From Diphasiastrum complanatum (taxonomy: Eukaryota > Streptophyta > Lycopodiopsida > Lycopodiales > Lycopodiaceae), in assembly GCA_029204225.1 (NCBI GenBank), contig CM055097.1, positions 63,733,662-63,797,661 on the forward strand: 64,000 nt of DNA, in the 5' to 3' direction. Made by a program: the position numbers and the translations under genes. The notes under the pieces are model-generated. The model saw only the letters and a program-made list of their open reading frames with translations. It was not told where the DNA came from and searched no databases. Of this stretch, positions 3,289 through 64,000 are shown piece after piece. Within the stretch, counting starts at the first letter, position 1; the number at the start of each line of letters is the position of its first letter.

Positions 3289-3371
<83 letters not shown>

Positions 3372-6716: not shown

Positions 6717-6719
6717 GCT

Positions 6720-9974: not shown

Positions 9975-10010
9975 AGCCTGAAGGAATCAGGCATGGCTCT
10001 AATTTCACTA

Positions 10011-13143: not shown

Positions 13144-13540
13144 CAAAGAAGAACAACAAAGTCAGATAAGAAAAAACTTCAATGGAATAATGGAGTTGAT
13201 GCAATAACTATTGTACCTATAGCTCACTCTCCACCACAACATAAGTAGAAGAAGAAGACCTATAGCCCTAAACCTTTCATCACGTACGATGTATAAATCA
13301 TTTGGCCTAGTTACTTTAAATTGACTAACGAGATTGAAAGACACTATTCTTGAAAAAGAGAGTTGGAATTATGGAAGCTACGTTGCCAATTTGATTTGTC
13401 AATTCAAAACAAGTTGAGAAATACTCATATTACCAACACTTTCATAGATGTTGAGAAGCTCTGTTGGTGGGAACCGAGGGATCACATTAGCGAAAGTAAA
13501 ATTCCACGCCTGCTTGTAGGTTGTGCATGGCGATCAAAAG
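13144..13540 (-). repeat. tandem repeat copy B with coding remnant
   Basis: This is the second copy. It is about 60 bp longer than copy A owing to an insert after the shared start. Its minus strand encodes the related FANVIPRFPPTELLNIYESV, followed by NQIGNVASIIPTLF in a shifted frame. Stops and shifts differ from copy A, so both copies are decaying independently. Confidence 0.6.
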
Positions 13541-16071: not shown

Positions 16072-17118
<1,047 letters not shown>

Positions 17119-22220: not shown

Positions 22221-25200
22221 CTACAAATCTTTTGCCTTGACTCCCTCCTCACAAGGAATCTGAGTTTCATTTTTCTGTTCAATGATTAGATTTGACCCGT
22301 CTTCATCAAGGTCCATAGCATTTGAAGCCATTATTGCGTCTATCCCTTCTGTAGTTAATTCCGCCCTCTGAGCTTCTACATGCAGTTCTTGATCAATCTT
22401 TGAATCGACATGTGTGATTAGGCTGCCGCTGGAGTGAGTTGGTTCCTCAGGTTTCTGTGCATCATGAGCTTCTATATGCAGCTCTTGCTCAGTCCTTATA
22501 TCGACATGTGTGGCTGGAGTGGACTGAGGTGTTTCCTCAGTTTTCTGTGCATCATAATTTCTGAGCAAATCCTCCCCTTTGTTGGCCCCATTGGCATGGG
22601 ATTCAACTTCCTGTAGTGGAGTATTTGATTTGTCACAAGTAAGCTTTTGCAGAAGCTCTTTGGCACCTGGACTTGTCTTGTCATTGATATTGTCCTCTGC
22701 TATGCAGTTTTGTTCTTCGTTCTGTGGGAAGGATTGGAAGTCGTGTTTTTGTACCACTTCGGCATTATCATTGCCCTCCGCTATATCACTCACTTTTTCA
22801 GTTGTATCAAGTTTCTGCACATCTGTCAGCTCTGGAAGTTCTTCATCGACAATATAAGGTAGCTTTTGTACTTCAGTTGATGGCAAACTTAAAGCTGCCC
22901 CTACCAGGCACTTGGCATCTGAATGCATCAGCATTAGCTCTTCATTATGTTTGTCCTCAAGTAGTTGTACTTCTATGTCCTCCGTGAGAAGGATGTTTAA
23001 CTCTGGTATGTGTACAGGTTTTCGTACCTGTAATGGCAATTCAGAATGAAGCCCTTCTACCAGCCCTTCTTCATTATGTGCCGGTGAGATTGGTGCATCT
23101 TGATCAATTGGAACATGAGGAACTGCTTCTCTCTTTTCATCCACATTGATTGTAGCATCTGTACCTTTCTCTTCAAAAAGCTCTTCTACAAAGGATGCTC
23201 TTGTTTCTTGTTCCAGTATTTCAATAGGTTGAACAGTCTCAGTAGTGTAATAAAAATTGTCTTCCTTCAAAGGCTTGATGCATTCTTCAACTTCTTCTGT
23301 AGGATGATATGCCAGTCCTTCCTTGAGCTCAGGTTGATCTTCCATAAATATCATCTGCTCTTCTGTTGATTCCTGTGATTCCACTGCGAAGATGCTTTCT
23401 ACAAGTTCCTTTGCTATTAAAGTATCGGCTTCATTATTAGCTGTAGAGATCTCAGGCTCAAACTTTGAATCAGCATGTGTTACTGGGCTGGACCGAGGTA
23501 GCTCCTCAGCTTTGTGTACATTATAATTTTTCTGAACATCCTCCTTTTTATTGGTCTCTTCAGAAGAAGATTCAACTGATTGAAGCCCTTCGACCGGCCC
23601 TTCTTCGTTTTGTGCCAGTGACATTGCTGCATCTTCATCAATTGGACCATGATGAAGTGCTTCTCTCTTTACATCCACAGTAATTGTAGCATCTGCACCT
23701 TTCTCTTCAAAAAGCTCTTCCACAAAGGATGCTCCTGTTTCTTGTTCCGGTACTCCAATAGGTTCAACAGCCTCAGTAGTGTATCTAAAATCATCTTCCT
23801 TCAAAGGCTTGATGTATTCTTCAGCTTCTTCTGTAGGATGACATGCCAGTCTTTCCTTGAGCTCAGGTTTGTCTTCCGTTGATATCATGCTCTCTTCTGT
23901 TGATTCCTGTATTTGCACTTTGAAGATGCTTTCTTCAAGTTTCTTCGCTGTTAAAGTATCGGCTTCATTATCAGCTGTAGAGATCTCAGGCTCGAACTTT
24001 GAATCAGCATGTGCTAGTGGGCTGGACCGGGGTAGTTCCTCAGCTTTTTCTACATAATAATTTCTCTGCACATCTTCCTCTTTATCGGCCTCTTCAGAAG
24101 AAGATTCAACTGATTGAAGCCCTTCTACTGGCCATTCTTCATTATGTGTTGGTGAGCTTGGTGCATCTTCCTCAAATTGAACATGAGGAAGTGCTTTTCT
24201 CATTTTATCCACGTTAATTGTATCATCCGCACCTTTCTCTTCAAAAAGCTCTTCCACAAAGGATGCTCCTTTTTCTTGTTGTGGTATTCCAATGGGTTGA
24301 ACACTCTTGGTAATGTAATCAAAATCATCTTCCTTCAAAGGGTTGATGTATCCTTCAACTTCTTCTGTAGGCTGATAGGCCAGTCTTTCCTTGAGCTCAG
24401 GTTCCTCTTCCATCAATATTATGTGCTCTTCTGTTAATTCCTGTGATTCCACTGTGAAGATGTTTTCTATAAGTTCTTTTGCTGTTAAAGTGTCAGCCTC
24501 CTTATCAGCTGTAGATAAATCAGCCTCAGACTTTGAATCAGCATGTGCTACTGGGCTGGATCGAGATAGTTCCTGTGCTTCCCGTACTTCATAATTTCTT
24601 TGCACATCTTCTTTATTGGTCTCTTCAGAAGAAGATTCAACTGCCGGCCCTTGTTCATCATGTGCCGTTGAGATTGGTGCATCTTCATCAATTGGAACAT
24701 GAGGAAGTTCCTCTCTCTTTTCATCCATATCAATTATAGCATCTGCATCTTTCTCTTCAAAAACCTCTGCCGCAAAGGATGCCCCGATTCCTTGCCCTGG
24801 TATGCCAATATGTTGAACTGTCCCAGTAGTGTAATCAAAAGCATCGTCCTTGATGTATTCTTTAATTTCTACTGTAGGTTGATATACCAGTCTTTCCTTC
24901 AGCTCAGGTTTGTCTTCCGTCAATATAATCTGCTCTTCTGTTGATTCCTGGGATTTCACTGTGAAGATGTTTTCATTAAGTTCCATTGCTGTTAAAACAT
25001 CGGCTTCCTTGTCACTTGTAGAGAATTCAGGCTCAGACTTTGAATCAGCCGGTGCTACTGGGCTGGACTGAGGTAGTTCCTCAGCTTTGTGAACATTATA
25101 ATTTCTCTGCACATCTTGCTCTTTGTTGGCCTCGTCAGAGAAAGATTCAACTGATTGAAGCCCTTCCAACAGCCCTTCTTCATTATATGCCAGTGAGCTT

Positions 25201-37200: not shown

Positions 37201-40200
37201 ACTGGGCTGGACCGAGGTAGTTCCTCGGCTTCCTGTCCATCATAATTTCTCTGCAAATCTTCCTCTGTATTGGTCTCTTCAGAAGAAGATTCAACTGATT
37301 GAAGCAGTTCTAACGGCCCTTCTTCATTATGCGCCGGTGACATTGGTGCATCTTCATCAATTGGAACGTGAGGAAGTTTATCTCTCTTTTCATCCACATC
37401 AATTACAGCATCTGCACCTTTCTCTTCAAAAGGCTCTTCCACAAACGATTCTCCTGTGTGTTGTTCCATCATTCCAATAGGTTGAACAGTCTCAGTAGTG
37501 TAATCAAAATCATCTTCCTTGAAATTCATAGGCTTGATGTATTCTTCGACTTCTTCTGTAGGACCAACTTCCAGTCTTTCCTTGAGCTCATGTTCTTCTT
37601 CCGTCATGTGCTCTTCTGTTGATTCGTGTGACTCCACTGTGAAGATGTTTTCTGTGAGTTCTTTTGCTGTTAAAGTGTCGGCTTCATTTTCAGCTGTAGA
37701 CAATCTAGGCGCAGACTTCGAATCAGCATCGTTGAAATTCATAGGCTTGATGTATTCCTCAACTTCTTCTGTAGGACGATATTCCAGACTTTCCTTGAGC
37801 TCAGGTTCTTCTTCCACCAGGAGGTCTTCTGTTATTTCCTGTGATTCCACTGTGAAGATGTTTTCTGTTAGTTCTGTTGCTATTAAAGTGTCCGCTTCCT
37901 TATCAGCTGTAGAGAATCCAGGCTCAGACTTTGAATCAGCATGTGCTGGTGGGCTGGACCGAGGTAGTTCCTCCTCTTCCTGTACATCGTAATTTCTCTC
38001 CAAATCTTGCTCTGTATTGGTCTCTTCAGATGGAGATTCAACTGATTGAAGCAGTTCTAACGGCCTTTCTTCATTATGTGCCGGTGACATTGGTGCATCA
38101 CCAATTGGAACGTGAGAAAGTTTATCTCTCTTTTCATCCACATCAATTATAGCATCTGCACCTTTCTCTTCAAAAAGCTCTTTCACAAACGATGCTCCTG
38201 TTTGTTGTTCCAGCATTCCAACAGGTTGAACAGTCTCAGTAGTGTAATTAAAATCATCTTCCTTGAAATTTATAGGCTTGATGTACTCTTCGACTTCTTC
38301 TGTAGGACCAAATTCCAGTCTCTCGTTGAGCTCAGGTTCTTCTTTCGTCATGTGCTCTTCTGTTGATTCCTGTGATTCCACTGTGAAGATGTTTTCTGTG
38401 AGTTCTTTTGCTGTTAAAGTGTCAGCTTTCTTATCTGCTGTAGACAATCCAGCCTTAGACTTTGAATCAGCATGTGCTACTGAGCTGCACTGAGGTAGTT
38501 CCTCGTCTTCCTGTACGTTATAATTTCTCGCCACATCATCTTTATTGGTCTCTTCAGAAGAAAATTCAACTGATTGAAGCCCTTCTAACGGCCCTTCTTC
38601 ATTATGTTCTGGTGACATTGGTGCATCTTCATCAATTGAAACATGAGGAAGCTTCTCTCTGCTTTCATCCACATCGATTGTAGGATCTGGACCTTCTTCT
38701 TTGCAAAGCTCTTCGACAAAGGATCTTCCTGTTTCTTGTTCCGGTATTCCAATAAGTTGAACAGTATCAGTATTGTAATCAAAATGATCTTCCTTCAAAT
38801 GCAAGGGCTTGTTGTATTCTTCAACTTCTTCTGTTGGATGATATTCCAGTCTTTCTTTGAGCTCAGGTTGTTTTTCTACCAGGTGGTCTTCTGTTATTTC
38901 CTGTGATTGCACTGTGAAGATGTTTTCGGTTCTTCCTGTTGCTGTTAAAGTGTCAGCTTCCTTATCAGCTGTAGAGAATCCAGGATGAGACTTTGAATCA
39001 GCTTGTGCTACTGGTCTGGACCGAGGTAGTTCCTCGGCTTCCTGTACATCGTAATTTCTCTGCAAATCTTCCTCTGTATTGGTCTCTTCAGAAGGAGATT
39101 CAACTGATCGAAGCAGTTCTAATGGCCCTTCTTCATTATGTGCCGGTGACATTGGTGCATCTTCATCAATTGGAACGTGATGAAGTTTATCTCTCTTTTC
39201 ATCCACATCAATTATAGCATCTGCACCTTTCTCTTCAAAAAGCTCTTCCACATACGATGCTCCTGTTTGTTGTTCCAGCATTCCAACAGGTTGAACAGTC
39301 TCAGTAGTGTAATTAAAATCATCTTCCTTGAAATTCATAGGCTTGATGTATTCTTCGACTTCTTCTGTAGGACAAAATTCCAGTCTTTCCTTGAGCTCAG
39401 TTTCTTCTTCCGTCATGTGCTCTTCTGTTGATTCCTGTGATTCCACTGTGAAGATGTTTTCTGTGAGTTCTTTTGCTGTTAAAGGGTCAGCTTCCTTATC
39501 AGCTGTAGACAATCCAGCCTTAGACTTTGAATCAGCATGTGCTACTGAGCTGCACCGAGGTAGTTCCTCGTCTTCCTGCACGTTATAATTTCTCGCCACA
39601 TCTTCATCTTTATTGGTCTCTTCAGAAGAAGATTCAGCTGATTCAGGCCCTTCTAACGGCCCTTCTTCATTATGTGCTGGTGACATAGGTGCATCTTCAT
39701 CAATTGGAACATGAGGAAGCTTCTCTCTCTTTTCATCCACATCAATTGTAGGATCTGGACCTTCTTCTTCGCAAAGCTCTTCGACAAAGGATCTTCCTGT
39801 TTCTTGTTCCAGTATTGCAATAGGTTGAACAGTATCAGTGGTGTAATCAAAATGATCTTCCTTCAAATGCAAGGGCTTGATGTATTCTTCGACTTCTTCT
39901 GTTGGACGATATTCCAGTCTTTCTTTGAGCTCAGGTTGTTTTTCCACCAGGTGGTCTTCTGTTAATTCCTGTGATTCCTCTGTGAAGATGTTTTCTGTTA
40001 GTTCTGTTGCTGTTAAAGTGTCAGCTACCTTATCAGCTGTAGAGAATCCAGGCTCAGACTTTGAATCAGCATGTGCTACTGGGCTGGACCGAGGTAGTTC
40101 CTCGGCTTCCTGTACATCATAATTTCTCTGCAAATCTTCCTCTGTATTGGTCTCTTCAGAAGAAGATTCAATTGATTGAAGCAGTTCTAACGGCCCTTCT

Positions 40201-43200
40201 GCATTATGCGCCGGTGACATTGGTGCATCTTCATCAATTGGAACGTGAGGAGGTTTATCTCTCTTTTCATCCACATCAATTATAGCATCTGCACCTTTCT
40301 CTTCAAAAGGCTCTTCCACAAACGATTCTCCTGTGTGTTGTTCCAGCATTCCAATAGGTTGAACAGTCTCAGTAGTGTAATCAAAATCATCTTCCTTGAA
40401 ATTCATAGGCTTGATGTATTCTTCGACTTCTTCTGTAGGACCAACTTCCAGTCTTTCCTTGAGCTCATGTTCTTCTTCCGTCATGTGCTCTTCTGTTGAT
40501 TCGTGTGACTCCACTGTGAAGATGTTTTCTGTGAGTTCTTTTGCTGTTAAAGTGTCGGCTTCATTTTCAGCTGTAGACAATCTAGGCGCAGACTTCGAAT
40601 CAGCATCATTGAAATTCATAGGCTTGATGTATTCCTCAACTTCTTCTGTAGGACGATATTCCAGACTTTTCTTGAGCTCAGGTTCTTCTTCCACCAGGAG
40701 GTCTTCTGTTATTTCCTGTGATTCCACTGTGATGTTTTCTGTTAGTTCTGTTGCTATTAAAGTGTCCGCTTCCTTATCAGCTGTAGAGAATCCAGGCTCA
40801 GACTTTGAATCAGCATGTGCTAGTGGGCTGGACCGAGGTAGTTCCTCCGCTTCCTGTACATCGTAATTTCTCTCCAAATCTTCCTCTGTATTGGTCTCTT
40901 CAGAAGGAGATTCAACTGATTGAAGCAGTTCTAACGGCCTTTCTTCATTATGTGCCGGTGACATTGGTGCATCACCAATTGGAACGTGAGGAGGTTTATC
41001 TCTCTTTTCATCCACATCAATTATAGCATCTGCACCTTTCTCTTCAAAAAGCTCTTTCACAAACGATGCTCCTGTTTGTTGTTCCAGCATTCCAACAGGT
41101 TGAACAGTCTCAGTAGTGTAATTAAAATCATCTTCCTTGAAATTTATAGGCTTGATGTATTCTTCGACTTCTTCTGTAGGACCAAATTCCAGTCTTTCGT
41201 TGAGCTCAGGTTCTTCTTTCGTCATGTCCTCTTCTGTTGATTCCTGTGATTCCACTGTGAAGATGTTTTCTGTGAGTTCTTTTGCTGTGAAAGTGTCAGC
41301 TTTCTTATCAGCTGTAGACAATCCAGCCTTAGACTTTGAATCAGCATGTGCTACTGAGCTGCACTGAGGTAGTTCCTCGTCTTCCTGTACGTTATAATTT
41401 CTCGCCACATCATCTTTATTGGTCTCTTCAGAAGAAAATTCAACTGATTGAAGCCCTTCTAACGGCCCTTCTTCATTATGTTCTGGTGACATTGGTGCAT
41501 CTTCATCAATTGAAACATGAGGAAGCTTCTCTCTGCTTTCATCCACATCGATTGTAGGATCTGGACCTTCTTCTTCGCAAAGCTCTTCGACAAAGGATCT
41601 TCCTGTTTCTTGTTCCGGTATTCCAATAAGTTGAACAGTATCAGTAGTGTAATCAAAATGATCTTCCTTCAAATGCAAGGGCTTGTTGTATTCTTCAACT
41701 TCTTCTGTTGGATGATATTCCAGTCTTTCTTTGAGCTCAGGTTGATTTTCCACCAGGTGGTCTTCTGTTATTTCCTGTGATTGCACTGTGAAGATGTTTT
41801 CGGTTCTTCCTGTTGCTGTTAAAGTGTCAGCTTCCTTATCAGCTGTTGAGAATCCAGGATGAGACTTTGAATCAGCATGTGCTGCTGGTCTGGATCGAGG
41901 TAGTTCCTCGGCTTCCTGTACATCGTAATTTCTCTGCAAATCTTCCTCTGTATTGGTCTCTTCAGAAGGAGATTCAACTGATCGAAGCAGTTCTAATGGC
42001 CCTTCTTCATTATGTGCCGGTGACATTGGTGCATCTTCATCAATTCGAACGTGAGGAAGGTTATCTCTCTTTTCATCCACATCAATTATAGCATCTGCAC
42101 CTTTCTCTTCAAAAAGCTCTTCCACATATGATGCTCCTGTTTGTTGTTCCAGCATTCCAACAGGTTGAACAGTCTCTGTAGTGTAATTAAAATCATCTTC
42201 CTTGAAATTCATAGGCTTGATGTATTCTTCGACTTCTTCTGTAGGACAAAATTCCAGTCTTTCCTTGAGCTCAGGTTCTTCTTCCGTTATGTGCTCTTCT
42301 GTTGATTCCTGTGCTTCCACTGTGAAGATGTTTTCTGTGAGTTCTTTTGCTGTTAAAGTGTCAGCTTTCTTATCTGCTGTAGACAATCCAGCCTTAGACT
42401 TTGAATCAGCATGTGCTACTGAGCTGCACCGAGGTAGTTCCTCGTCTTCCTGCACGTTATAATTTCTCGCCACATCTTCATCTTTATTGGTCTCTTCAGA
42501 AGAAGATTCAGCTGATTCAGGCCCTTCTAACGGCCCTTCTTCATTATGTGCTGGTGACATTGGTGCATCTTCATCAATTGAAACATGAGGAAGCTTCTCT
42601 CTCTTTTCATCCACATCAATTGTAGGATCTGGGCCTTCTTCTTCCCAAAGCTCTTCGACAAAGGATCTTCCTGTTTCTTGTTCTGGTATTGCAATAGGTT
42701 GAACAGTATCAGTGGTGTAATCAAAATGATCTTCCTTCAAATGCAAGGGCTTGATGTATTCTTCGACTTCTTCTGTTGGACGATATTCCAGTCTTTCTTT
42801 GAGCTCAGGTTGTTTTTCCACCAGGTGGTCTTCTGTTAATTCCTGTGATTCCTCTGTGAAGATGTTTTCTGTTAGTTCTGTTACTGTTAAAGTGTCAGCT
42901 ACCTTATCAGCTGTAGAGAATCCAGGCTCAGACTTTGAATCAGCATGTGCTACTGGTTTGGACCGAGGTAGTTCCTCGGCTTCCTGTACATCGTAATTTC
43001 GCTCCAAATCTTCCACTGTATTGGTCTCTTCAGAAGGAGATTCAAATGATTGAAGCAGTTCTAACGGCCCTTCTTCATTATGTGCCGGTGACATTGGTGC
43101 ATCTTCATCAATTGGAACCCGAGGATGTTTATCTCTCTTTTCATCCACATCAATTATAGCATCTGCACCTTTCTCTTCAAAAAGCTCTTTCACAAACGAT

Positions 43201-46200
43201 GCTCCTGTTTGTTGTTCCAGCATTCTAACAGGTTGAACAGTCTCAGTAGTGTAATTAAAATCATCCTCCTTGAAGTTCATAGGCTTGATGTATTCTTCGA
43301 CTTCTTCTCTAGGACAAAATTCCAGTCTTTCCTTGAGCTCAGGTTCTTCTTCCGTCATGTGCTCTTCGGTTGATTCCTGTGATTCCACTGTAAAGATGTT
43401 TTCTGTGAGTTCTTTGTCAGCTTCCTTATCAGCTGTAGACAATCCAACCTTAGACTTTGAATCAGTCTGTGCTGGTGAGCTGCACCGAGGTAGTTCCTCG
43501 TCTTCCTGTACGTTATAATTTTTCGCCACATCTTCATCTTTATTGGTCTCTTCAGAAGAAAATTCAACTGATTGAAGCCCTTCTAACGGCCCTTCTTCAT
43601 TATGTGCTGGTGACATTGGTGCATCTTCATCAATTGAAACATGAGGAAGCTTCTCTCTCTTTTCATCCACATCAATTGTAGGATCTGGACCTTCTTCTTC
43701 GCAAAGCTCTTCGACAAACGATCTTCCTGTTTCGGGTTCCGGTATTGCAATAGGTTGAGCAGTATCAGTAGTGTAATCAAAATGATCTTCCTTCAAATGC
43801 AAGGGCTTGATGTATTCTTCAACTCCTTCTGTTGGACTATATTCCAGTCTTTCTTTGTGCTCAGGTTGTTTTTCCAGCAGGTGGCCTTCTGTTATTTTCT
43901 GTGATTCCAGTGTGAAGATGTTTTCTGTTAGTTCTTTTGCTGTTAAAGTGTCAGCTTCCTTATCAGCTGTAGAGAATCTAGGCTGAGACTTTGAATCAGC
44001 ATGTGCTAGTGGGCTGGACCGACGTACATCGTCGGCTTCCTGTACGTAATAAGCTCTCTGCACATCTTCATCTTTAATGGTCTCTTCAGAAGAAGATTCA
44101 ACTGATTGAAGCGCTTTTACTGTGCCTTCCTCATTGTTTGCCGGTGAGCCTGGTGCACTTCCATCAATTGGAACATCAGGACGTTTCGCTCTCTTTTCAT
44201 CCATTTCAATTGTAGCATCCACAGCTTTTTCGTCAAAAGGCTCTCCCATAACAGGTGCTGCTGTTTCTTGTTCTGGTACTCGAATGGGTTGCATAGTCTC
44301 AGTAGTGTAATCAGAATGAACTTCCTTCAAATTCAAAGGCTTGATGTATTCTTCAATTTCTTCTGTAAGATGTTTTGCCAGTCCTTCCTCGAGCTGAGGT
44401 TCATCTTCCATGAATATTATGCGCTTCTTTGTTGATTCATGTGATTCCAATGTAAAGATATTTTCTTTAAGTTCCTTTGTTGTTAAATTGGCAGGTTCTG
44501 TATTGTTTGTAGAGAAATTAGGCTGAGACTTTGAATCGGCATGTGCTACTGGGCTGGTCCGAGGTAGTTCCTCGACTTCCTGTACATCATAATTTCTCTG
44601 CACATCTTCCTCTGTATTTGTCTCTTCAGAAGAAGATTCAGCTGATTGAAGCCCTTCTACCATCCCCTCTTCATTATGTGCCAGTGAGATTGGTGCATCT
44701 TCATCAATTGGAACATTAGGACATTTCTCTCTCTTTTGATCTACAACAGTTATAGCTTCTGCATCTTTCTCTTCAAAACGCTCTTCCACAAAGGATGCTC
44801 CTGTGTGTTGGTCCAGCATTTCAGTAGGTTGAACAGTCTCAGTAGTGTAATCAAAATCATCTTCCTTTAAATTCATAGGCTGGATGTATTCTGCAACTTC
44901 TTCTGTAGGACGATATTCCAGATTTTCCTTGAGCTCAGGTTCTTCATCCCCCAGGTGGTCTTCTGTTGTTTCCTGTGATTCCACTGTGAAGATGTTTTCA
45001 GTTAGTTCTGTTGCTGTTAAAGTGTCGGCTTCCATATCACCTGTACAGAATCCAGGCTCAGACTTTGAATCAGCATATGTTACTGGGCTGGACCGAGGTA
45101 GTTCCTCAGCTTCCTGTACTTCATAGTTTCTCTGCAAATCTTCCTCTGTATTGGTCTCTTCAGAAGAAGATTCAACTGATTGAAGCAGTTCTAACGGCCC
45201 TTCTTCATTATGTGCCGGTGACATTGGTGTATCTTCATCTATTGGAATGTGAGGAAGTTTATCCCTCTTTTCATCCACATCAATTATGGCATCTGCATCT
45301 TTCTCTTCAAAAAGCTCTTCCACAAATGATACTCCTGTGTGTTGTTCCAGCATTCCAACAGGTTGAACAGTCTCAGTAGTGTAATCAAAATCATCTTCCT
45401 TGAAATTTATAGGCTTGATGTATTCTTCAACTTCTTCTCTATGACAAAATTCCAATCTTTCCTTGAGCTCAGGTTCTTCTTCCGGCTCTTCTGTTAATTC
45501 TTGTGATTCCACTGTGAAGATGTTTTCTGTGAGTTCTTTTGCTGTTAAAGTGTCAGCTTCCTTATCAGCTGTTGACAATGTAGGCTCAGACTTTGAATCT
45601 ACATTTGCTACAGAGGTCCACCGAGGTAGTTCCTCCGCTTCCTGTACTTTATAATTTCTCGCCACATCTTCATCTTTATTGGCCTCTTCAGAAGAAGATT
45701 CAACTGATTGAAGCGCTGCTAATGGCCCTTCCTCATTATGTGCCGGTGACATTGGCGCATCTTCATCAATTGGAACATGAGGAAGCTTCTCTCTTGTTTC
45801 ATCCACATCAATGGTAGGATCTGCACCTGCTTCTTCGCAAAAGTCTTCGACAAAGGATCTTCCTGTTTCTTGTTCCAGTATCGCATTAGGTTGAACAGTC
45901 TCATCAGTGTAATCAAAATCATCTTCCTTCAAATGCACAGGCTTGATGTATTCTTCAACTATTTCTGTAGGACGATATTCCAGTGTTTCTTTGAGCTCAG
46001 GTTGTTTCTCCACCAGGTGGTCTTCTGTTATTTGCTGTGATTCCATTGTGAAGATGTTTTCTGTTAGTTCTTTTGCTGTTAAAGTGTCAGCTTCCTTATC
46101 AGCTCTATAGAATCCAGGCTCAGACTTTGAATCAGCATGTGCTACTGGGCTGGACAGACGTAGATCCTCGGCTTCCTGTACGTTATAATTTCTCTGCACA

Positions 46201-49200
46201 TCTTTATCTTTATTGGTCTCTTCAGAAGAAGATTCAACTGATTGAAGTGCTTTTACCGTCCCTTCTTTATTGTTTGCCGTTGAGATTGCTACACCTTCAT
46301 CAATTGGAACATCAGGACATTTCTCTCTCTTTTCATCCATTTCAATTGTAGCATCCACAGCTTTTTCGTCAAAAGGCTCTCCCATAATGGGTGCTGCTGT
46401 TTCTTGTTCTGGTACTCGAATGTGTTGAAGAGTCTCAGTAGTGTAATCTGAATGAACTTCCTTCAAATTCAAAGGCTTGATGTATTCTTCAATTTCCTCT
46501 GTAGGATGGTCTACCAGTCTTTCCTCGAGCTGAGGTTCATCTTCCATGAATATTTTGCGCTCCTCTGTTGATTCCTGTGATTCCAATGTAAAGATGTTTT
46601 CTTTAAACTCCTTTGTTGTTAAACTGGCAGGTTCCGTATCAGTTGTAGAGAAATCAGGCTGAGACTTCGAATCAGCATGTGCTACTGGGCTGGAGCGAGG
46701 TAGTTTCTCGACTTCCTGTACATCATAATTTCTTTGCACCTCTTCCTCTTTATTTGTCTCTTCAGAAAACGATTCATCTGATTGAAGCCCTTCTACCATC
46801 CCCTCTTCATTATGTGCCAGTGAGATTGGTGCTTCTTTATCAATTGGAACTTGAGGAAGTTTCTCTCGCTTTTCATCCACATCAATTATAGCATCTGCAC
46901 CGTTCTCTTCAAAAAGCTCTTCGACAAAGGATGCTTCTGTGTGTTGTTCCAGTATTTCAATAGGTTGAACAGTCTCATTACTGTAATCAAAATCATCTTC
47001 CTTGAAATTCATAGGCTTGATGTATTCCTCAACTTCTTCGGTAGGACGATCATCCAGACTTCCCTTGAGCTCAGGTTCTTCTCCCACGAGGTGGTCTTCT
47101 GTTATTTCCTGTGATTCCACTGTGAAGTTGTTTTCTGTTAGTTCTTTTGCTGTTAAAGTGTCACCTTCCTTATCAGTTGTAGAGAATCCAGCCTCAGACT
47201 TTGAATCAGCATGTGCTACTGAGCTGCACTGAGGTTGTTTCTCGGCTTCCTGTATGTTATAATTTCTCGGCACATCTTCATCTTTATTGGTCTCTTCAGA
47301 GGAAGATTCAATTGATTGAAGCACTTCTAACTGCCCTTCTTCATTATGTGCCGGTGACATTGGTGAATCTTCATCTATTGGAACATGACGAAGCTTCTCT
47401 CTCTTTTCCTCCACATCAATTGCAGGATCTGCACCTTCTTCTTCGAAAAGCTCTTCGACAAAGGATGTTCCTGTTTCTTTTTCTGGTATTGCAATAGGTT
47501 GAACAGTCTCACTAGTCTCATCTTCCTTCAAATGCAAAGGCTTGATGTATTCTTCAACTTCTACTATAGGACGATATTCATGGCTTTCCTTTAGCTCAGG
47601 TTGTTTTTCCACCAGGTGGTCTTCTGTTATTTCCTGTGATTCCACTGTGAAGATGTTTTCTGTTAGTTTTTCTGCTATTAAAGTGTCAGCTTCCTTATCA
47701 GCTGTAGAGAATTCAGGCTCAGACTTTGAATCAGCATGTGCTACTGGGCTGGACCGACGTAGATCCTCGGCTTCCTGTACGTTATAATTTCTCTGCACAT
47801 CTTCATCTTTATTGGTCTCTTCAGTAGAAGATTGAACTGTTTGAAGCGCTTTTACTGTCCCTTCCTCATTGTTTGCCGGTGAGACTGGTGCACTTTCATC
47901 AATTGGAACATCAGGACGTTTCTCTCTCTTTTCATCCATTTCAACTGTAGCATCCACTGCTTTTTCGTCAAAAGGCTCTCCCATAACTGGTGGTGCTGTT
48001 TCTTGTTCTGGTACTCGAATGGGTTGAACAGTCTCAGTAGTGTAATCAGAATCAACGTCCTTCAAATTCAAAGGCTTGATGTATTCTTCAATTTCTTCTG
48101 TAGGATGGTCTACCAGTCCTTCCTCAAGTTCAGGTTCATCTCCCACGAATATTATGTGCTCCTCTGTTGATTCCTGTGATTCCAATGTAAAGATGTTTTC
48201 TTTAGCATGTGCTACTGGGCTGGACCGAGGCAGTTCCTCGACTTCCTGTACATCATAATTTCTCTGCACAGCTTCCTCTTTATTGGTCTCTTCAGAAGAC
48301 GATTCAGCTGATTGAAGCTCTTCTACCAATTCCTCTTCATTATGTGCCAGTGAGATTGGTGCATCTTTATCAATTGGAACGTGAGGAAGTTTCTCTCTCT
48401 TTTCACCTACATCAATTATAGCTTCTGGACCTTTCTCTTCAAAAAGCTCTTTCACAAAGGATGCTCCTGTGTGTTGGTCCAGCATTTCAATATGTTGAAC
48501 AGTCTGAGTAGTGTAATCAAAATCATCTTCCTTGAAATTCATAGGCTTGATGTATTCCTCAAGTTCTTCTGTAGGACGATATGCCAGACTTCCCTTGAGG
48601 TCAGGTTGCTCTTCCACCAGGTGGTCTTCTGTTATTTCCTGTGATTCCACTGTGACGATGTTTTCTGTTAGTCCTGTTGCTGTTAAAGTGTCAGCTTCGT
48701 TATCAGCTGTAGAGAATCCAGGCTCGGTCTCTGAATCAGCATGTGCTACTGGGCTGGACCGAGGTAGTTCCTCGGCTTCCTGTACATCATAATTTCTCTG
48801 CAAATCTTCCTCTGTATTGGTCTCTTCAGAAGAAGATTCAATTGATTGAAGCAGTTCTAACGGCCCTTCTGCATTATGCGCCGGTGACATTGGTGCATCT
48901 TCATCAATTGGAACGTGAGGAAGTTTATCTCTCTTTTCATCCACATCAATTATAGCATCTGCACCTTTATCTTCAGAAAGCTCGTCCACAAACAATGCTT
49001 CTGTGTGTGGTTCCAGCATTCCAATAGCTTGAACAGTCTCAGTAGTGTAATCAAAATCATCTTTCTTGAAATTCATAGGCTTGATGTAGCCTTCGACTTC
49101 TTCTGTAGGACAAAATTCCAGTCTTTCCTTGAGCTCAGGTTCTTCCGTCATGTGCCCTTCTGTTGATTCCTGTGAGATGTTTTCTGTTAGTTCTTGTGCT

Positions 49201-52200
49201 GTTAAAGTGTCGGCTTCCTTATCAGCTATAGACAATCCAGGCTCAAATTTTGAATCAGCATGTGCTACTGAGCTGCACCGAGGTAGTTCCTCGGCTTCCT
49301 GTACGTTGTTATTTCTCGGCACATCTTTATTTTTATTGGTCTCTTCAGAAGAAGATTCAGCTGATTCAGGCCCTTCTAATGGCCCTTCTTCATTTTGTGC
49401 CGGTGACAGTGGTGCATCTTCATCAATTGAAACACGAGGAATCTTCTCTCTGTTTTCATCCACATCAATTATAGCTTCTGGACCTTTTGCTTCGCAAAGC
49501 TCTTCGACAAAGGATTTTCCTGTTTCTTGTTGCGGTATTACAATAGGTTGAACAGTCTCAGTAGTGTGATCCAAATGATCTTCCTTCAAATGCAAAAGCT
49601 TGATGTATTCTTCAACTTCTTCTGTAGGACGATATTCCAGTCTTTCCTTAAACTCAGGTTGTTTTTCCACCAGGTGGTATTCTGTTATTTCCTGTGATTC
49701 CACTGTGAAGATGTTTTCTGTTAGCTTTTTTGCTGTTAAAGTGTCAGCTTCCTTATCAGCTGTAGAGAATCCAGGGTCAAACTTTGAATCAGCATGTGCG
49801 ACTGGGTTGGACCGAGGTAGTTCCTCCGCTTCCTGTACGTTATAATTTCTCGGCACATCTCCATCTTTATTGGTCTCTTCAGAAGAAGATTCAACTGTTT
49901 GGAGCCCTTCTAAGGGTCCTTCTTCATTTTGAACCGGCGGTGACATTGGTGCATCTTCAACAATTGGTACATGAGGAACTTTCTCTCTCTTTTCATCCAC
50001 ATCAATTGTAGCATCTTCGCCTTTTTCTTCGCAATGCTCTTCGACAAAGGTTGTTCCTGTTTCTTGTTCCAGTATTCGAATAGGTTGAACAGTCTCAGTA
50101 GTGTAATCAGAATGATCTTCCTTGAAATGGAAAGGCTTGATGATTTCTGCAACTTCTTCTGTAGGACAATATTCCAGTCCTTCGTTGAGCTCAGGTTCTT
50201 CTTGCATCTTGTGGTCTTCTGTTGATTCCTGTGATTCCACTGTGAAGATGTTTTCTGTGAGTTCTTTTGCTGTTAAAGTGTCAGCGTCCTTATCAGCTGT
50301 AGGAAATCCAGGCTCAGACTTCGAATCAGAATGTGCTAAGCGGCTGGACCGAAGTAGTTCCTCGGCTTCCTGTACATTATAATTTCTCTCTACATATTCA
50401 TCTTTGTTGGTCTCTTCAGAAGAAGATTCAACTGATTGAAGCCCCTCTACTGGCCCGTCTTCTTTCTGTGCCGGTGACATATGTGCATCCTCATTAAATG
50501 GAACATGAGGAAGTTTCTCTCTGTTTTCATCCACATCAATTGTGGCATCTGCACCTTTCTCTTCAAAAGGCCCAGCCGCAAAGGATATTCCTGTTTCTTG
50601 TTCAGGTATTCCAATATGTTGAACAGTCTCAGTAGCGTAATCAAAATCATCTTCTTTCAAATCTAAAGGCCTGATGGATTCTTTGATTTCTGTAGGACAA
50701 TATTCCAGTCTTTCCCTGAGATCAGGTTCGTGTTCCAACAATGTCATGTGCTCTTCTTCTGATTCCTTTGATTCGACTGTGAAGATTTTTGCTGTAAGTT
50801 CTTTTGCTTTTAAATCGTCAGCTTCCTCATCAGTGCCAGGGAAATCAGGGTCAGACTTTGAATCAGCATGTGCTTCTGGGCTGGACCGAGGTAGTTCCTC
50901 GGCTTCCTGTACATCATAATTTCTCTGCAAATCTTCCTCTGTATTGGTCTCTTCAGCAGAAGATTCAACTGATTGAAGCAGTTCTAACGGCCCTTCTTCA
51001 TTATGCGCCGGTGACATTGGTGCATCTTCATCAATTGGAACATGAGGAAGTTTATCGCTCTTTTCATCCACATCAATTATAGCATCTGTACCTTTCTCCT
51101 CAAAAAGCTCTTCTATAAACGATGTCTCTGTGTGTTGTTCCAGCATTCCAATAGGTTGAACAGTCTCAGTAGTGTAATCAAAATCATCTTCCTTGAAATT
51201 CATAGGCTTGATGTAGTCTTCAACTTCTTCTGTAGGACAAAATTCCAGTCTTTCCTTGAGCTCAGGTCCTTCCGTCATGTGCTCTTCTGTTGATTCCTGT
51301 GATTCCAATGCGAAGACGTTTTCTGTGAGTGTTTTTGCTGTTAAAGTGTCAGCTTCCTTATCAGGTGTAGAGAATCCAGGCTCAGACTTTGAATCAGCAT
51401 GTGCTACTGGGCGGGACCGAGGTAGTTCCTCGGCTTTCCGTACATCATAATTTCTCTGCAAATCTTCCTCTGTATTGGTCTCTTCAGAAGACGATTTAAC
51501 TGAGTGAAGCTTTTCTAACGGCCCTTCTTCATTATGCGCCGGTGACATTGGTGCGTCTTCATCAATTGGAATGTGAGGAAGTTTATCTCTCTTTTCATCC
51601 ACATCAATTACAGCATCTGCACCTTTCTCTTCAAAAAGCTCTTCCACAAACGATGCTTCTGTGCGTTGTTCCAGCATTCGAATAGGTTGAAGAGTCTCAG
51701 TAGTGTAATCAAAATCATCTTCCTTGAAATTCATAGGCTTGATGTAGTCTTCCACTTCTTGTGTAGGACATAATTCCAGTCTTTCCTTGAGCTCAGGTTC
51801 TTCTTTCGTCATGTGCTCTTCTGTTGATTCCTGTGATTCCACTGTGAAGATGTTTTCTGTGAGTTCTTTTGCTGTTAAAGTGTCAGCTTCCGTATCAGCT
51901 GTAGACAATCCAGGTTCAGATGTTGAATCAGGATGTGCTACTGAGCTGCACCGAGGTAGTTCCTCGGCTTCCTGTACGTTATAATTTCTCGGCACATCTT
52001 CATCTTTATTGGTCTCTTCAGAAGAAGATTCAACGGATTGAAGCCCTTCTAACGGCCCTTCTTCATTATGTGCCTCTGACATTGGTGCATCTTCATCAAT
52101 TGGAACATGAGGAGGCTTCTCTCTCTTTTCATCCACATCAATTGTAGCATCTTCACCTTTTTCTTCGCAAAGCTCTTCGACAAAGGATCTTTCTGTTTCT

Positions 52201-55200
52201 TGTTCCGGTATCGCAATAGGTTGAACAGTCTCAGTAGTGTAATCAAAATCATCTTCCTTCAAATGCAAAGGCTTGATGTATTCTTCAACTTCTTGTGTTG
52301 GACGATATTCCAGTCTTTCCTTTAACTCAGGTTGTTTTTCCACCAGTTGGTCTTCTGTTATTTGCTGTGATTCCTCTGTGAAGATGTTTTCTGTAAGTTC
52401 TTTTGCTGTTAAATTGTCAGCTTCCATATCAGATGTAGAGAATCCAGGCTCAGACTTTGAATCAGCATGTGCTACTGGGGTGGACCCAGGTAGTTCCTCG
52501 GCTTCCTGTACGTTATAATTTCTCGGCACATCTTCAGCTTTATTGGTCTCTTCAGAAGAAGATTCAACTGATTGGAGCCCTTCTAAGGGCCCTTCTTCAT
52601 TATGTTCCGGCGGTGACATTGGTGCATCTTCATCAATTGATACATGAGGAACTTTCTCGCTTTTTTCATCCACATCTATTGTAGCATCTTCGCCTGTTTC
52701 GTTGCAAAGCTCTTCGACAGCGGTTGTTCCTATTGCCTGTTCCAGTGTTCGAATAGGTTGAACAGTCTCAGTAGTGTAATCAGAATGTTCTTCCTTGAAA
52801 TGCAAAGGCTTGATGTATTCTTCAACTTCTTCTGCAGGACGACATTCCAGTCCTTCCTTGAGCTCAGGTTCTTCTTCCATAATGTGGTCTTCTGTTGATT
52901 CCTGTGATTCCACTGTGAAGATGTTTTCTGTGAGTTCTTTTGCTGTTAAAGTGTCAGCTTCCATATCAGCTCTAGAGAATACAGGCTCAGACTTTGAATC
53001 AGAATGTGCTAATGGGCTGGACCGTAGTAGTTCGTCGGCTTCCTGTACATTATAATTTCTCTCTACATCTTCATCTTTGTTGGTCTCTTCAGAAAGAGAT
53101 TCAACTGATTGAAGCCCCTCTACTGGCCCGTCTTCTTTCTGTGCCGGTGACATTTGTGCATCCTCATCAATTGGAACATGAGGAAGTTTCTCTCTGTTTT
53201 CATCCACATCAATTGTGGCATCTGCACCTTTCTCTTCAAAAAGCCCTGCCGCAAAGGATATTCCTGTTTCTTGTTTAGGTATTCCAATATGTTGAACAGT
53301 CTCATTAGCGTAACCGAAATCATCTTTTCCTTTCAAATCTAGAGGCCTGATGTATTCTTTGTCTTCGGTAGGACAATATGCCAGTCTTTCCCCGAGATCA
53401 GGTTCGTGTTCCATGAATATCATGTGCTCTTCTTTTGATTCCTCTGATTTCAATGTGAAATTGTTTTCTGTAAGTTCTTCTGCTTTTAAATCGTCAGCTT
53501 CCATATCACCTGTACAGAATCCAGGCTCAGACTTTGAATCAGCATATGTTACTGGGCTGGTCCGAGGTAGTTCCTCAGCTTCCTGTACTTCATAATTTCT
53601 CTGCAAATCTTCCTCTGTATTGGTCTCTTCAGAAGAAGATTCAACCGATTGAAGCAGTTCTAACGGCCCTTCTTCATTATGTGCCGGTGACATTGGTGTA
53701 TCCTCATCAATTGGAATGTGAGGAAGTTTATCTCTCTTTTCATCCACATCAATTATAGCATCTGCACCTTTATTTTCAAAAAGCTCTTCCACAAACGATA
53801 CTCCTGTGTGTTGTTCCAGCATTCCAACAGGTTGAACAGTCTCAGTAGTGTAATCAAAATCATCTTCCTTGAAATTCATAGGCTTGATGCATTCTTCAAC
53901 TTCTTCTCTATGACAAAATTCCAGTCTTTCCTTGAGCTCAGGTTCTTCTTCCGGCTCTTCTGTTGATTCTTGTGATTCCACTGTGAAGATGTTTTCTGTG
54001 AGTTCTTTTGCTGTTAAAGTGTCAGCTTCCTTATCAGCTGTTGACAATGTAGGCTCAGACTTTGAATCTACATTTGCTACAGAGGTGCACCGAGGTAGTT
54101 CCTCCGCTTCCTGTACTTTATAATTTCTCGGCACATCTTCATCTTTATTGGTCTCTTCAGAAGAAGATTCAACTGATTGAAGCGCTTGTAATGGCCCTTC
54201 CTCATTATGTGCCGGTGACATTGGCGCATCTTCATCAATTGGAACATGAGGAAGCTTCTCTCTTGTTTCATCCACATCAATTGTAGGATCTGCACCTTCT
54301 TCTTCGCAAAACTCTTCGACAAAGGATCTTCCTGTTTCTTGTTCCGGTATTGCATTAGGTTGAACAGTCTCATCAGTGTAATCAAAATCATCTTCCTTCA
54401 AATGCAAACGCTTGATGTATTCTTCAACTTTTTCTATAGGACGATATTCCAGTGTTTCCTTGAGCTCAGGTTGTTTTTCCACCAGGTGGTCTTCTGTTAT
54501 TTCCTGTGATTCCATTGTGAAGATGTTTTCTGTTAGTTCTTTTGCTGTTAAAGTGTCAGCTTCCTTATCAGCTGTATAGAATCCAGGCTCAGACTTTGAA
54601 TCAGCATGTGCTACTGGGCTGGACAGACCTAGATCCTTGGCTTCCTGTACGTTATAATTTCTCTGCACATCTTTATCTTTATTGGTCTCTTCAGAACAAG
54701 ATTCAACTGATTGAAGTGCTTTTACCGTCCCTTCTTTATTGTTTGCCGGTGAGATTGCTGCACCTTCATCAATTGGAACTTCAGGACGTTTCTCTCTCTT
54801 TTCATCCATTTCAATTGTAGCATCCACAGCTTTTTCGTCAAAAGGCTCTCCCATAACGGGTGCTGCTGTTTCTTGTTCTGGTACTCGAATGTGTTGAGCA
54901 GACTCAGTAGTGTAATCTGAATAAACTTCCTTCAAATTCAAAGGCTTGATGTATTCTTCAATTTCTTCTGTAGGATGGTCTACCAGTCTTTCCTCGAGCT
55001 GAGGTTCATCTTCCATGAATATTTTGCGCTCCTCTGTTGATTCCTGTGATTCCAATGTAAAGATGTTTTCTTTAAACTCCTTTGTTGTTAAACTGGCAGG
55101 TTCCGTATCAGTTGTAGAGAAATCAGGCTGAGACTTCGAATCAGCATGTGCTACTGGGCTGGAGCGAGGTAGTTCCTCGACATCCTGTACATAATTTCTT

Positions 55201-58200
55201 TGCACATCTTCGTCTTTATTTGTCTCTTCAGAAAACGATTCAGCTGATTGAAGCCCTTCTACCATCCCCTCTTCATTATGTGCCAGTGAGATTGGTGCAT
55301 CTTTATCCATTGGAACTTGAGGAAGTTTCTCTCGCTTTTCATCCACATCAATTATAGCATCTGCACCTTTCTCGTCAAAAAGCTCTTCCACAAAGGGTGC
55401 TTCTGTGTGTTGTTCCAGCATTTCAATAGGCTGAACAGTCTCAGTACTGTAATCAAAATCATCTTCCTTGAAATTCATAGGCTTGATGTATTCCTCAACT
55501 TCTTCTGTAGAACGATATTCCAGACTTCCCTTGAGCTCAGGTTCTTCTTCCACGAGGTGGTCTTCTGTTATTTCCTGTGATTCCACTGTGAAGATGTTTT
55601 CTGTTAGTTCTGTTGCTGTTAAAGTGTCAGCTTCGTTATCAGAATTTCTCTGCAAATCCTCCCCTTTATTGGTCTCTTTAGAAGAAGATTCAACTGATTG
55701 AAGCAGTTCTAACGGCCCTTCTTCATTATGCGCCGGTGACATTCGTGCATCTTCATCAATTGGAACGTGAGGAAGTTTATCTCTCTTTTCATCCACATCA
55801 ATTATAGCATCTGCACGTGTCTCTTCAAAAAGCTCTTCCACAAACGATGCTTCTGTGTATTGTTCCAGCATTCCAATAGGATGAATAGTCTCAGTAGTGT
55901 AATCAAAATTATCTTCCTTGGAATTCATAGGCTTGATGTAGTCTTCGACTTCTTTTGTAGGACAAAATTCCAGTCTTTCCTTGAGCTCAGGTTCTTCCGT
56001 CCTGTGCTCTTCTGTTGATTCCTGTGATTCCGCTGTGAAGTTGTTTTCTGTTAGTTCTTGTGCTGTTAAAGTGTCACCTTCCTTATCAGTTGTAGAGAAT
56101 CCAGGCTCAGACTTTGAATCAGCATGTGCTACTGAGCTGCACCGAGGTAGTTTCTCGGCTTCCTGTATGTTATAATTTCTCGGCACATCTTCATCTTTAT
56201 TGGTCTCTTCAGAGGAAGATTCAACCGTTTGAAGGACTTCTAACGGCCCTTCTTCATTATGTGCCGGTGACATTGGTGCATCTTCATCAATTGGAACATG
56301 ACGAAGCTTCTCTCTCTTTTCCTCCACATCAATTGCGGGATCTGCACCTTCTTCTTCGCAAAGCTGTTCGACAAAGGATGTTCCTGTTTCTTTTTCAGGT
56401 ATTGCAATAGGTTGAACAGTCTCAGTACTGTAATCAAAATCATCTTCCTTCAAATGCAATGGCTTGATGTATTCTTCAACTTCTTCTGTAGGACGATATT
56501 CCAGTCTTTCCTTTAGCTCAGGTTGTTTTTCCACCAGGTGGTCTTCTGTTATTTTCTGTGATTCCACTGTGAAGATGTTTTCTGTTAGTTTTTTTACTAT
56601 TAAAGTTGCAGCTTCCTTATCAGCTGTATAGAATTCAGGCTCAGACTTTGAATCAGCATGTGCTACTGGGTTGGACGGACGTAGATCCTCGGCTTCCTGT
56701 ACGTTATAATTTCTCTGCGCATCTTCATCTTTATTGGTCTCCTCAGAAGAAGATTGAACTGTTTGAAGCGCTTTTACTATCCGTTCCTCATTGTTTGCCG
56801 GTGAGACTGGTGCACTTTCATCAATTGGAACATCAGGACGTTTCTCTCTCTTTTCGTCCATTTCAATTGTAGCATCCACAGCTTTTTCGTCAAAAGGCTC
56901 TCCCATAACGGGTGCTGCTATTTCTTGTTCTGGTACTCTAATGGCTTGAACAGTCTCAGTAGTGTAATCAGAATCAACTTCCTTGAAATACAAAGGCTTG
57001 ATGTATTCTTCAATTTCTTCTGTTTGATTGTCTACCAGTCCTTCCTCAAGCTCAGGTTCATCTTCCACGAATATTATGTGCTCCGCTGTTGATTCCTGTG
57101 ATTCCCATGTAAAGATTTTTTCTTTAGCATGTGCTACTGGGCTGGATGGAGGTAGTTCCTCGACTTCCTGTACATCAGAATTTCTTTGCACATCTTCCTC
57201 TTTATTTGTCTCTTCAGAAGACGATTCAGCTGATGGAAGCCCTTCTACCATTCCCTCTTCATTATGTGCCAGTGAGATTGGAGCATCTTTATCTATTGGA
57301 ACGTTAGGAAATTTCTCTCTCTTTTCACCTACATCAATTATCGCTTCTGCACCTTTCTCTTCAAAAAGCTCTTCCACAAAGGATGCTCCTGTGTGTTGGT
57401 CCAGCATTTCAATATGTTGAACAGTCTGAGTAGTGTAATCAAAATCATCTTCCTTGAAATTCATAGGCTTGATGTATTCCTCAAGTTCTTCTGTAGGACG
57501 ATATTCCGGACTTTCCTTGAGGTCAGGTTTTTCTTCCACCAGGTGGTCTTCTGTTATTTCCTGTGATTCCACTGTGAAGATGTTTTCTGTTAGTCCTGTT
57601 GCTGTTAAAGTGTCAGCTCCCTTATCAGCTGTAGAGAATCCAGGCTCAGACTTTGAATCAGCATGTGCTACTGGGCTGGACCGAGGTAGTTCCTCGGCTT
57701 CCTGTACATCATAATTTCTCTGCAAGTCTTCCTCTGTATTGGTCTCTTCAGAAGAAGATTCAATTGATTGAATCAGTTCTAACGCCCCTTCTGCATTATG
57801 CGCCGGTGACATTGGTGCATCTTCATCAATTGGAACGTGAGGAAGTTTATCTCTCTTTTCATCCACATCAATTATAGCATCTGCACCTTTATCTTCAGAA
57901 AGCTCTTCCACAAACAATGCTTCTGTGTGTGGTTCCAGCATTCCAATAGCTTGAACAGTCTCAGTAGTGTAATCAAAATCATCTTTCTTGAAATTCATAG
58001 GCTTGATGTAGTCTTCGACTTCTTCTGTAGGACAAAATTCCAGTCTTTCCTTGAGCTCAGGTTCTTCCGTCATGTGCCCTTCTGTTGATGCCTGTGAGAT
58101 GTTTTCTGTTAGTTCTTTTGCTGTTAAAGTGTCAGCTTCCTTTTCAGCTATAGACAATCCAGGCTCAGACTTTGAATCAGCATGTGCTCCTGAGCTGCAC

Positions 58201-61200
58201 CGAGGTAGTTCCTCGGCTTCCTGTACGTGATAATTTCCCGGCACATCTTCATCTTTATTGGTCTCTTCAGAAGAAGATTCAGCTGATTCAGGCCCTTCTA
58301 ACGGCCCTTCTTCATTTTGTGCGGGTGACAGGGGTGCATCTTCAACAATTGAAACACGAGGAATCTTCTCTCTGTTTTCATCCACATCAATTATAGCTTC
58401 TGCACGTTTTGCTTCGCAAAGCTCTTGGACAAAGGATTTTCCAGTGTGATCCAAATGATCTTCCTTCAAATGCAAAAGCTTGATGTATTCTTCAACTTCT
58501 TCTGTAGGACGATATTCCGGTCTTTCCTTGAACTCAGGTTGTTTTTCCACGAGGTGGTCTTCTGTTATTTCCTGTGATTCCACTGTGAAGATGTTTTCTG
58601 TTAGCTTTTTTGCTGTTAAAGTGTCAGCTTCCTTATCAGCTGTAGAGAATCCAGGGTCAGACTTTGAATCAGCATGTGCTACTGGGTTGGACCAAGGTAG
58701 TTCCTCCGCTTCCTGTACGTTATAATTTCTTGGCACATCTTCATCTTTATAGGTCTCTTCAGAAGAAGATTCAACTGTTTTGAGCCCTTCTAAGGGCCCT
58801 ACTTCATTTTGTGCCGGCGGTGACATTGGTGCATCTTCAACAATTGGTACATGAGGAACTTTCTCTCTCTTTTCATCCACATCAATTGTAGCATCTTCGC
58901 CTTTTTCTTCGCAATGCTCTTCGACAAAGGTTGTTCCTGTTTCTTGTTCCAGTATTCGAATAGGTTGAACAGTCTCAGTAGTGTAATCAGAATGATCTTC
59001 CTTGAAATGCAAAGGCTTGATGATTTCTTCAACTTCTTCTGTAGGACAATATTCCAGTCCTTCGTTAAGCTCAGGTTCTTCTTGCATCTTGTGGTCTTCT
59101 GTTGATTCCTGTGATTCCACTGTGAAGATGTTTTCTGTGAGTTCTTTTGCTGTTAATGTGTCAGCGTCCTTATCAGCTGTATGAAATCCATGCTCAGACT
59201 TCGAATCAGAATGTGCTAAGCGGCTGGACCGAAGTAGCTCCTCGGCTTCCTGTACATTATAATTTCTCTCTACATCTTCATCTTTGTTGGTCTCTTCAGA
59301 AGAAGATTCAACTGATTGAAGCCCCTCTACTGGCCCGTCTTCTTTCTGTGCCGGTGACATACGTGCATCCTCATCAATTGGAACATGAGGAAGTTTCTCT
59401 TTGTTTTCATCCACATCAATTGTGGCATCTGCACCTTTCTCTTCAAAAGGCCCTGCCGCAAAGGATGTTCCTGTTTCTTGTTCAGGTATTCCTATATGTT
59501 GAACAGTCTCAGGAGCGTAATCAAAATCATCTTCTTTCAAATCTAAAGGCCTGATGGATTCTCTGACTTCTGTAGGACAATATGCCAGTCTTTCCCTGAG
59601 ATCAGGTTCGTGTTCCAACAATGTCTTGTGCTCTTCTTTTGATTCCTTTGATTCGACTGTGAAGATTTTTGCTGTAAGTTCTTTTGCTTTTAAATCGTCA
59701 GCTTCCTCATCAGTGGCAGAGAAATCAGGGTCAGACTTTAAATCAGCATGTGCTTCTGGGCTGGACCGAGGTAGTTCCTCGGCTTCCTGTACATCATAGT
59801 TTCTCTGCAAATCTTCCTCTGTATTGGTCTCTTCAGCAGAAGATTGAACTGATTGAAGCAGGTCTAACGGCCCTTCTTCATTATGCGCCGGTGACATTGG
59901 TGCATCTTCATCAATTGGAACGTGAGGAAGTTTATCTCTCTTTTCATCCACATCAATTATAGCATCTGTACCTTTCTCTGCAAAAAGCTCTTCCATAAAC
60001 GATGTCTCTGTGTGTTGTTCTAGCATCTCAATAGGTTGAACAGTGTCTGTAGTGTAATCAAAATCATCGTCCTTGAAATTCATAGGCTTGATGTATTCCT
60101 CAACTTCTTCTGTAGTAGGACGATATTCCAGACTTTCCTTGAGCTCAGGTTCTTCTTCCACCAGGAGGTCTTCTGTTATTTCCTGTGATTCCACTGTGAA
60201 GATGTTTTCTGTGAGTGCTTTTGCTGTTAAAGTGTCAGCTTCCTTATCAGGTGTAGAGAATTCTGGCTCAGACTTTGAATCAGCATGTGCTACTGGGCGG
60301 GACCGAGGTAGTTCCTCGGCTTTCTGTACATCATAATTTCTCTGCAAATCTTCCTCTGTATTGGTCTCTTCAGAAGACGATTTAACTGATTGAAGCATTT
60401 CTAACGGCCCTTCTTCATTATGCGCCGGCTTGAGGTAGTCTTCGACTTTTTCTGTAGGGCAAAATTCCAGTCTTTCCTTGAGCTCAGGTTCTTCGGTCAT
60501 GTGCTCTTCTGTTGATTCCTGTGATTCCATTGTGAAGATGTTTTCTGTGAGTTCTTTTGCTGTTAAAGTGTCAGCTTCCGTATCAGTTGTAGACAATCCA
60601 GGTTCAGATGTTGAATCAGGATGTGCTGCTGAGCTGCACCGAGGTAGTTCCTCGGCTTCCTGTACGTTATAATTTCTCGGCACATCTTCATCTTTATTGG
60701 TTTCTTCAGAAGAAGATTCAACGGATTGAAGCCCTTCTAACGGCCCTTCTTCATTATGTGCCGGTGACATTGGTGCATCTTCATCAATTGGAACATGAGG
60801 AGGTTTCTCTCTCTTTTCATCCACATCAATTGTAGCATCTGCACCTTTTCCTTCGCAAAGCTCTTCGACAAAGGATCTTTCTGTTTCTTGTTCCGGTATT
60901 GCAAGAGGTTGAACAGTCTCAGTAGTGTAATCAAAATCATCTTCCTTCAAATGCAAAGGCTTGATGTATTCTTCAACTTCTTGTGTTGGACGATATTCCA
61001 GTCTTTCCTTTAACTCAGGTTGTTTTTCCACCAGTTGGTCTTCTGTTATTTCCTGTGATTCCTCTGTGAAGATGTTTTCTGTAAGTTCTTTTGCTGTTAA
61101 ATTGTCAGCTTCCTTATCAGATGTAGAGAATCCAGGCTCAGACTTTGAATCAGCATGTGCTACTTGGGTGGACCCAGGTAGTTCCTCGGCTTCCTGTACA

Positions 61201-64000: not shown

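Follow-up and report, generated by a model that had tools for sequence, protein, structure and literature searches.

What does it mean when the minus strand of a plant contig stays open for 41.8 kb and remains open where the sequence ends? The question is raised by a window of 64,000 nucleotides from the lycopod Diphasiastrum complanatum (contig CM055097.1; by window is meant the whole stretch of DNA analysed), for which the original prediction, made from the letters alone, was a frame of more than 13,900 codons running off the window and encoding an acidic, repetitive and probably disordered product. The frame itself was readily confirmed: it comprises 13,925 codons followed by a TAG at 22221, it is unbroken up to the edge at 63998, and its 5' end lies outside the window. 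Judged from its sequence, this open frame is strongly non-random and most likely encodes, as part of a working gene, a giant acidic repeat protein that is disordered. The features on which this reading is based are the following.

22221..63998, minus strand: single open reading frame, 13,925 codons and TAG, with 0 stops in frame
23043..63995, minus strand: tandem array of 178-residue acidic units, residues 2-13652, with 84 profile matches end to end
22224..23042, minus strand: C-terminal tail of 273 residues (13653-13925), with two degenerate unit-start copies recognised by similarity to the unit
21367..22094, minus strand: decayed relic 3' of the stop, detected by blastn, with stops in all three frames

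The open frame and its repeat array

The five remaining frames of the same interval carry 438 to 1,575 stops apiece. The giant frame has none, against 837 expected under a first-order Markov model of the strand and 559 expected from its codon-position composition; the minus strand is A-rich (36.7% A), so that many stops are to be expected. The part of the predicted product that can be seen has a pI of 4.20 and a mass of 1.575 MDa; it contains 19.4% Glu and 7.8% Asp, and among its 13,925 residues there are 74 Cys and 12 Trp. With a mean H of 0.389 and a net charge of 0.183 per residue (boundary at -0.07), the chain plots well beyond the charge-hydropathy boundary, among disordered proteins, in agreement with the acidity and the probable disorder that had been proposed.

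The proposal had also been that the 41.8 kb contain neither stop nor intron. Its first half stands; the second is a reading of genomic sequence, where internal splicing would not show, and transcripts of the array may yet be spliced or prematurely polyadenylated. Polypyrimidine-AG sites number 109 in the array against 29.8 in synonymous shuffles, and AATAAA occurs 47 times against 21.6; both excesses perhaps reflect a site of one unit multiplied by repetition. Strong donor motifs were not seen in the array, where only one or two were expected (AGGTAA 0 against 2.0). Donor depletion was considered as proof of a single exon and dropped, since too few donors are expected and acceptor-like sites are in excess. 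For the large Arabidopsis protein RBB1, to which we return below, one method reported 33 poly(A) sites in coding exons where direct RNA sequencing showed none (PMC4908657), a discrepancy that calls for caution with transcript data from such A-rich genes.

The repetitive character of the product is borne out by a regular array of acidic units of 178 residues (534 bp), spanning about 77 unit-lengths. A profile made from 30 clean units gave 85 matches in the frame: the 84 of the array, between which gaps or overlaps do not exceed 4 residues, and one weak match in the tail. Unit statistics were based on the 70 of these 85 matches that are near-complete, with 15 partial rows excluded. At the protein level these units share a mean pairwise identity of 67% (51-97%), and at the DNA level one of 84% (76-98.5%), an average difference of 16%. 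Tandem Repeats Finder, whose longest period of 500 is below the length of the 534-bp unit, picked up no more than three partial arrays longer than 400 bases within it.

Two other accounts of the locus, as an artefact of assembly or as a satellite-like array kept open by its composition, would fit its tandem arrangement, its block duplications and its lack of known relatives in the collections searched. Both are very improbable: the other five frames are rich in stops, and long reads should be able to place the units because these differ as much as they do, the longest exact repeat in the array being 265 bp and no 300-mer recurring.

The history of the array is partly legible in the similarities among units. 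Mean identity is 0.847, 0.861 and 0.846 at distances of two, four and six units, and 0.836 in each case at distances of one, three and five; in the unit tree, for example, units 36, 38, 40 and 42 cluster separately from units 37, 39, 41 and 43. This alternation in identity and grouping indicates growth partly by a two-unit period. Two block duplications are also seen.

38001..43001, minus strand: recent four-unit duplication, units 36-39 (43001-40872) and units 40-43 (40127-38001), from unit identities
45132..61748, minus strand: block duplication of about 13-15 units, units 4-16 (61748-53601) and 18-31 (53060-45132), from unit identities and aligned blocks

The four unit pairs of the first are 97.9-98.5% identical in DNA, and ten unit pairs of the second are at 95-98%. 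The sequence shows that the coding region grew as 534-bp units were duplicated in tandem again and again, partly with a two-unit period, and later as a block of 4 units and one of about 15; unequal exchange would be the likely cause. The idea that the 5' edge of the array lies close to the edge of the window was dropped, as it is not clear that the first units diverge most.

The C-terminal tail had been described as unique, which is true only in part. The opening 87-88 bases of the unit recur in it twice in degenerate form (22562-22476, E 3e-10; 22467-22379, E 9e-8), and it has an internal duplication of 90-96 bp. Beyond the stop, positions 22030-22094 of the relic are 75% identical to positions 22811-22875 of the tail (E 1.7e-8), and the relic repeats itself, 21914-22014 against 21367-21469, with 67% identity across 104 bases, the two stretches being offset by about 545 bp. 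It was detected by blastn only; with the whole frame as query, tblastn at default settings gave no match in the adjoining 22 kb at E up to 1. The simplest reading, on these similarities, is that the relic would be what is left, after decay, of a 3' part of this gene or array. Its stops in every one of the three minus-strand frames imply that sequence of this kind decays when it is not kept.

One of two inverted copies, 11335-11555 on the plus strand and 21222-21548 on the minus strand, lies inside the decayed flank past the giant frame; the two are 85-90% identical in two pieces and represent a partial duplication. A direct repeat of about 228 bp (12896-13123 and 13302-13525, 80% identity) and (CT)n microsatellites at 3289-3373 (42.5 copies) and 16075-16170 (48 copies) were also observed. 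Broken pieces of copia-type retrotransposons occupy 5328-9986 on the minus strand (Pol_BBD E 1.9e-20, Retrotran_gag_2 E 3.4e-9, with weaker gag_pre-integrs and integrase core), and the plus strand has a weak DUF4219 match at 4277-4558. The retrotransposon domains are consistent with plant DNA, though they are no proof of it. Overlapping open frames with coiled-coil-like sequence lie at 484-2117 on the plus strand; three pieces of these were scanned, and none matched a Pfam family above the cut-off.

Probable selection on the frame and on charge

The stops that the array should have gathered can be estimated from the tree of its units. Parsimony places 1,946 substitutions on this tree, from which about 62 stops would be expected and none is seen; the indels that it places between units, about 35 events, each involve whole codons, as the continuous frame entails. 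Neutral simulations on the same tree (100 runs for each of three transition weights, in a model without indels or gene conversion) gave means of 219, 183 and 139 stops in the 70 units, and at least 69 stops in each of the 300 runs. An earlier estimate of 116 expected stops was discarded in favour of tree parsimony and simulation, as it counted shared changes many times. The same holds over short times: 16 young unit pairs, hand-picked from the four-unit and block duplications, differ by 271 changes, with 0 stops against 9.0 expected. The absence of stops against all three expectations argues that the frame has been kept, and lately too. Gene conversion, which lies outside the simulated model, can also remove stops, by copying.

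The residues themselves tell another story. Over all unit pairs pN/pS is 0.89, ranging from 0.57 to 1.68 by 12-codon window, and the median dN/dS is 0.87, with values below 1 in 71% of pairs. In the 16 young pairs, replacement changes number 194 and silent ones 77; their ratio of 2.52 compares with an expected 2.50 when transitions are weighted; with transitions unweighted, pN/pS is 0.68. Such near-neutral ratios mean that the residues carry little sign of function.

These observations bear on a recently silenced gene or pseudogene, in which the frame was kept until lately, the 3' end decayed and expression was lost. Such a history would account for the near-neutral replacement in the youngest pairs and for the decayed relatives of the tail past the stop, where the 3' end of an older and longer gene may have been lost. 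It is nevertheless unlikely, given that the youngest pairs chosen contain none of the 9.0 stops expected and that no frameshift has entered 41.8 kb of the giant frame.

What appears to be maintained beside the frame is charge. At acidic consensus positions, changes to the other acid are more frequent than expected (206 against 121), while changes to neutral (352 against 503) and to basic residues (134 against 178) are rarer, so that total loss of acid amounts to 486 against 681; these and the following counts are of cells and not of independent events, as related units share changes. Neutral positions became acidic in 151 cells against 91 expected and basic in 156 against 145, and basic positions became neutral in 186 against 111 and another basic residue in 17 against 59. 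Changes from basic to acidic, on the other hand, are rarer than expected (32 against 46), which counts against selection on charge. The net charge per unit is -32.2 (s.d. 4.1). Hydrophobic character is found at 18 unit positions in at least 95% of units, and acidic character at 27 positions in at least 90%. Phosphorylation of the CK2 type was considered as a special feature and dropped, as CK2-like sites number 568 against about 547 from composition. Taken as a whole, the pattern fits a coding gene selected for an open frame and negative charge, and not for exact sequence.

Relatives, and likeness to known giant proteins

Homology was searched in Pfam, PDB, and bacterial, archaeal, viral and phage collections; the results are therefore silent on plant relatives. 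The original view that the product has no recognised domain was upheld by Pfam scans of two 12-kb end pieces and of 35 of the 70 near-complete units: the 3' and 5' pieces gave sub-threshold matches only (E 0.022-0.49), as did the units, where five families each matched a single unit (best E 0.011). A profile search of PDB with an E limit of 1 found no relative, nor did a search of the phage collection with a single unit as query. In bacterial and archaeal genomes 312 stretches fitted the pattern, and in IMG/VR 178, none of which was confirmed as a relative. Rfam at gathering score and a tRNA search gave no match in the whole window. In the literature, no title among the best matches listed concerns such a plant gene.

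A likeness in manner of working, as an acidic, proline-containing disordered chain, links the giant product to the titin PEVK or poly-E region; P, E, V and K together make up 38% of its residues. Titin PEVK modules are about 28 residues long, unlike the 178-residue unit, and the giant frame is not a member of the titin family; immunoglobulin and fibronectin type III domains, which are found in titin, had no Pfam match in the two 12-kb end pieces or the 35 units. Poly-E peptides of titin are reported to compact with pH (PMC9495361).

Likeness is also found among land-plant predictions, from which the kind of protein is already known. One passage of PMC6681478 lists acidic entries from Punica granatum (PKI66547.1, 11,234 aa, pI 3.87), Sphagnum (9,126 aa, pI 4.05), Selaginella (8,462 aa, pI 4.02) and Gossypium arboreum ('titin-like', 7,209 aa, pI 4.21), with a second 'titin-like' acidic cotton prediction of 7,181 aa, as well as entries from Helianthus (12,581 aa, pI 11.75) and Pyrus (11,880 aa, pI 5.37). 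Like the giant frame, the giant acidic land-plant predictions are very long, acidic or titin-like by name, and without assigned function. The yardstick of about 5,000 residues against which the frame had been measured does not survive this comparison, as land-plant predictions run from 7,000 to 12,600 residues. With 13,925 codons the giant frame exceeds every land-plant entry in that passage, and it is still incomplete; several algal entries are longer, up to 22,244 residues (PMC6681478), and later genomes may contain longer land-plant proteins. With 13,925 residues and a pI of 4.20, it agrees in length and pI with a descriptive class of giant acidic plant proteins (more than 7,000 residues, pI near 4).

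Among characterised proteins, the closest analogue, set beside the giant product by description, may be RBB1 (REGULATOR OF BULB BIOGENESIS1, At5g40450). It is a large plant-specific protein of 2,890 aa without conserved domain, found soluble in the cytosol and in the membrane fraction, which affects vacuole shape, as described for Arabidopsis only (PMC4411111); it is also one of only two proteins common to all four osmotic-stress phosphoproteomes compared in PMC6117580. Both proteins are very large and without recognised domain. They differ in that RBB1 has 2,890 residues against at least 13,925, and the word 'repeat' is absent from the main text of PMC4411111. Could the locus be an RBB1 orthologue, its acidic middle inflated by tandem repeats, with the RBB1 ends beyond the window or in 3' exons? 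The reported orthologues are very large, plant-specific, domainless and divergent in sequence, and about 40 database matches fall only within a 75-residue C-terminal region; yet they reach only 3,715 aa (PMC4411111). The acidic 'titin-like' cotton predictions of PMC6681478 would add to the case, if the guess that they are RBB1 is right. On the other side, short motif patterns of the RBB1 C-terminus, one of them from a printed phosphopeptide, which are weak queries, gave nothing convincing in six frames. Orthology with RBB1 is thus possible but doubtful.

A probable giant polyanion and its meaning

We favour, with a probability of roughly 60%, the reading in which the locus is the 3' part of a nuclear gene whose array grew by duplication and which encodes a giant disordered polyanion under selection for frame and charge. 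Selection would hold the frame open and the chain at about -32 charges per unit, with the residue sequence drifting almost freely, as the statistical pattern suggests. With hydrophobic and acidic positions loosely kept at a fixed spacing, the product could serve as a multivalent scaffold or an entropic spacer, and the trait under selection would probably be the length and charge of the chain and not a fold. By analogy with RBB1, the leading guess as to role, and a weak one, would be a cytosolic scaffold of membranes or of the vacuole. More tentative is the fuller proposal of a working land-plant protein of more than 1.57 MDa in which selection would see only the open frame, negative charge and length, and whose length would vary between individuals by unit exchange.

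If expressed, the protein would be among the longest reported from land plants, with its coding array taking up 41.8 kb or more in what appears to be one exon. It would offer a clean natural case of selection acting on frame and charge and little on sequence, in which the evolution of protein length by exchange of repeat units would be directly testable between individuals and sister species.
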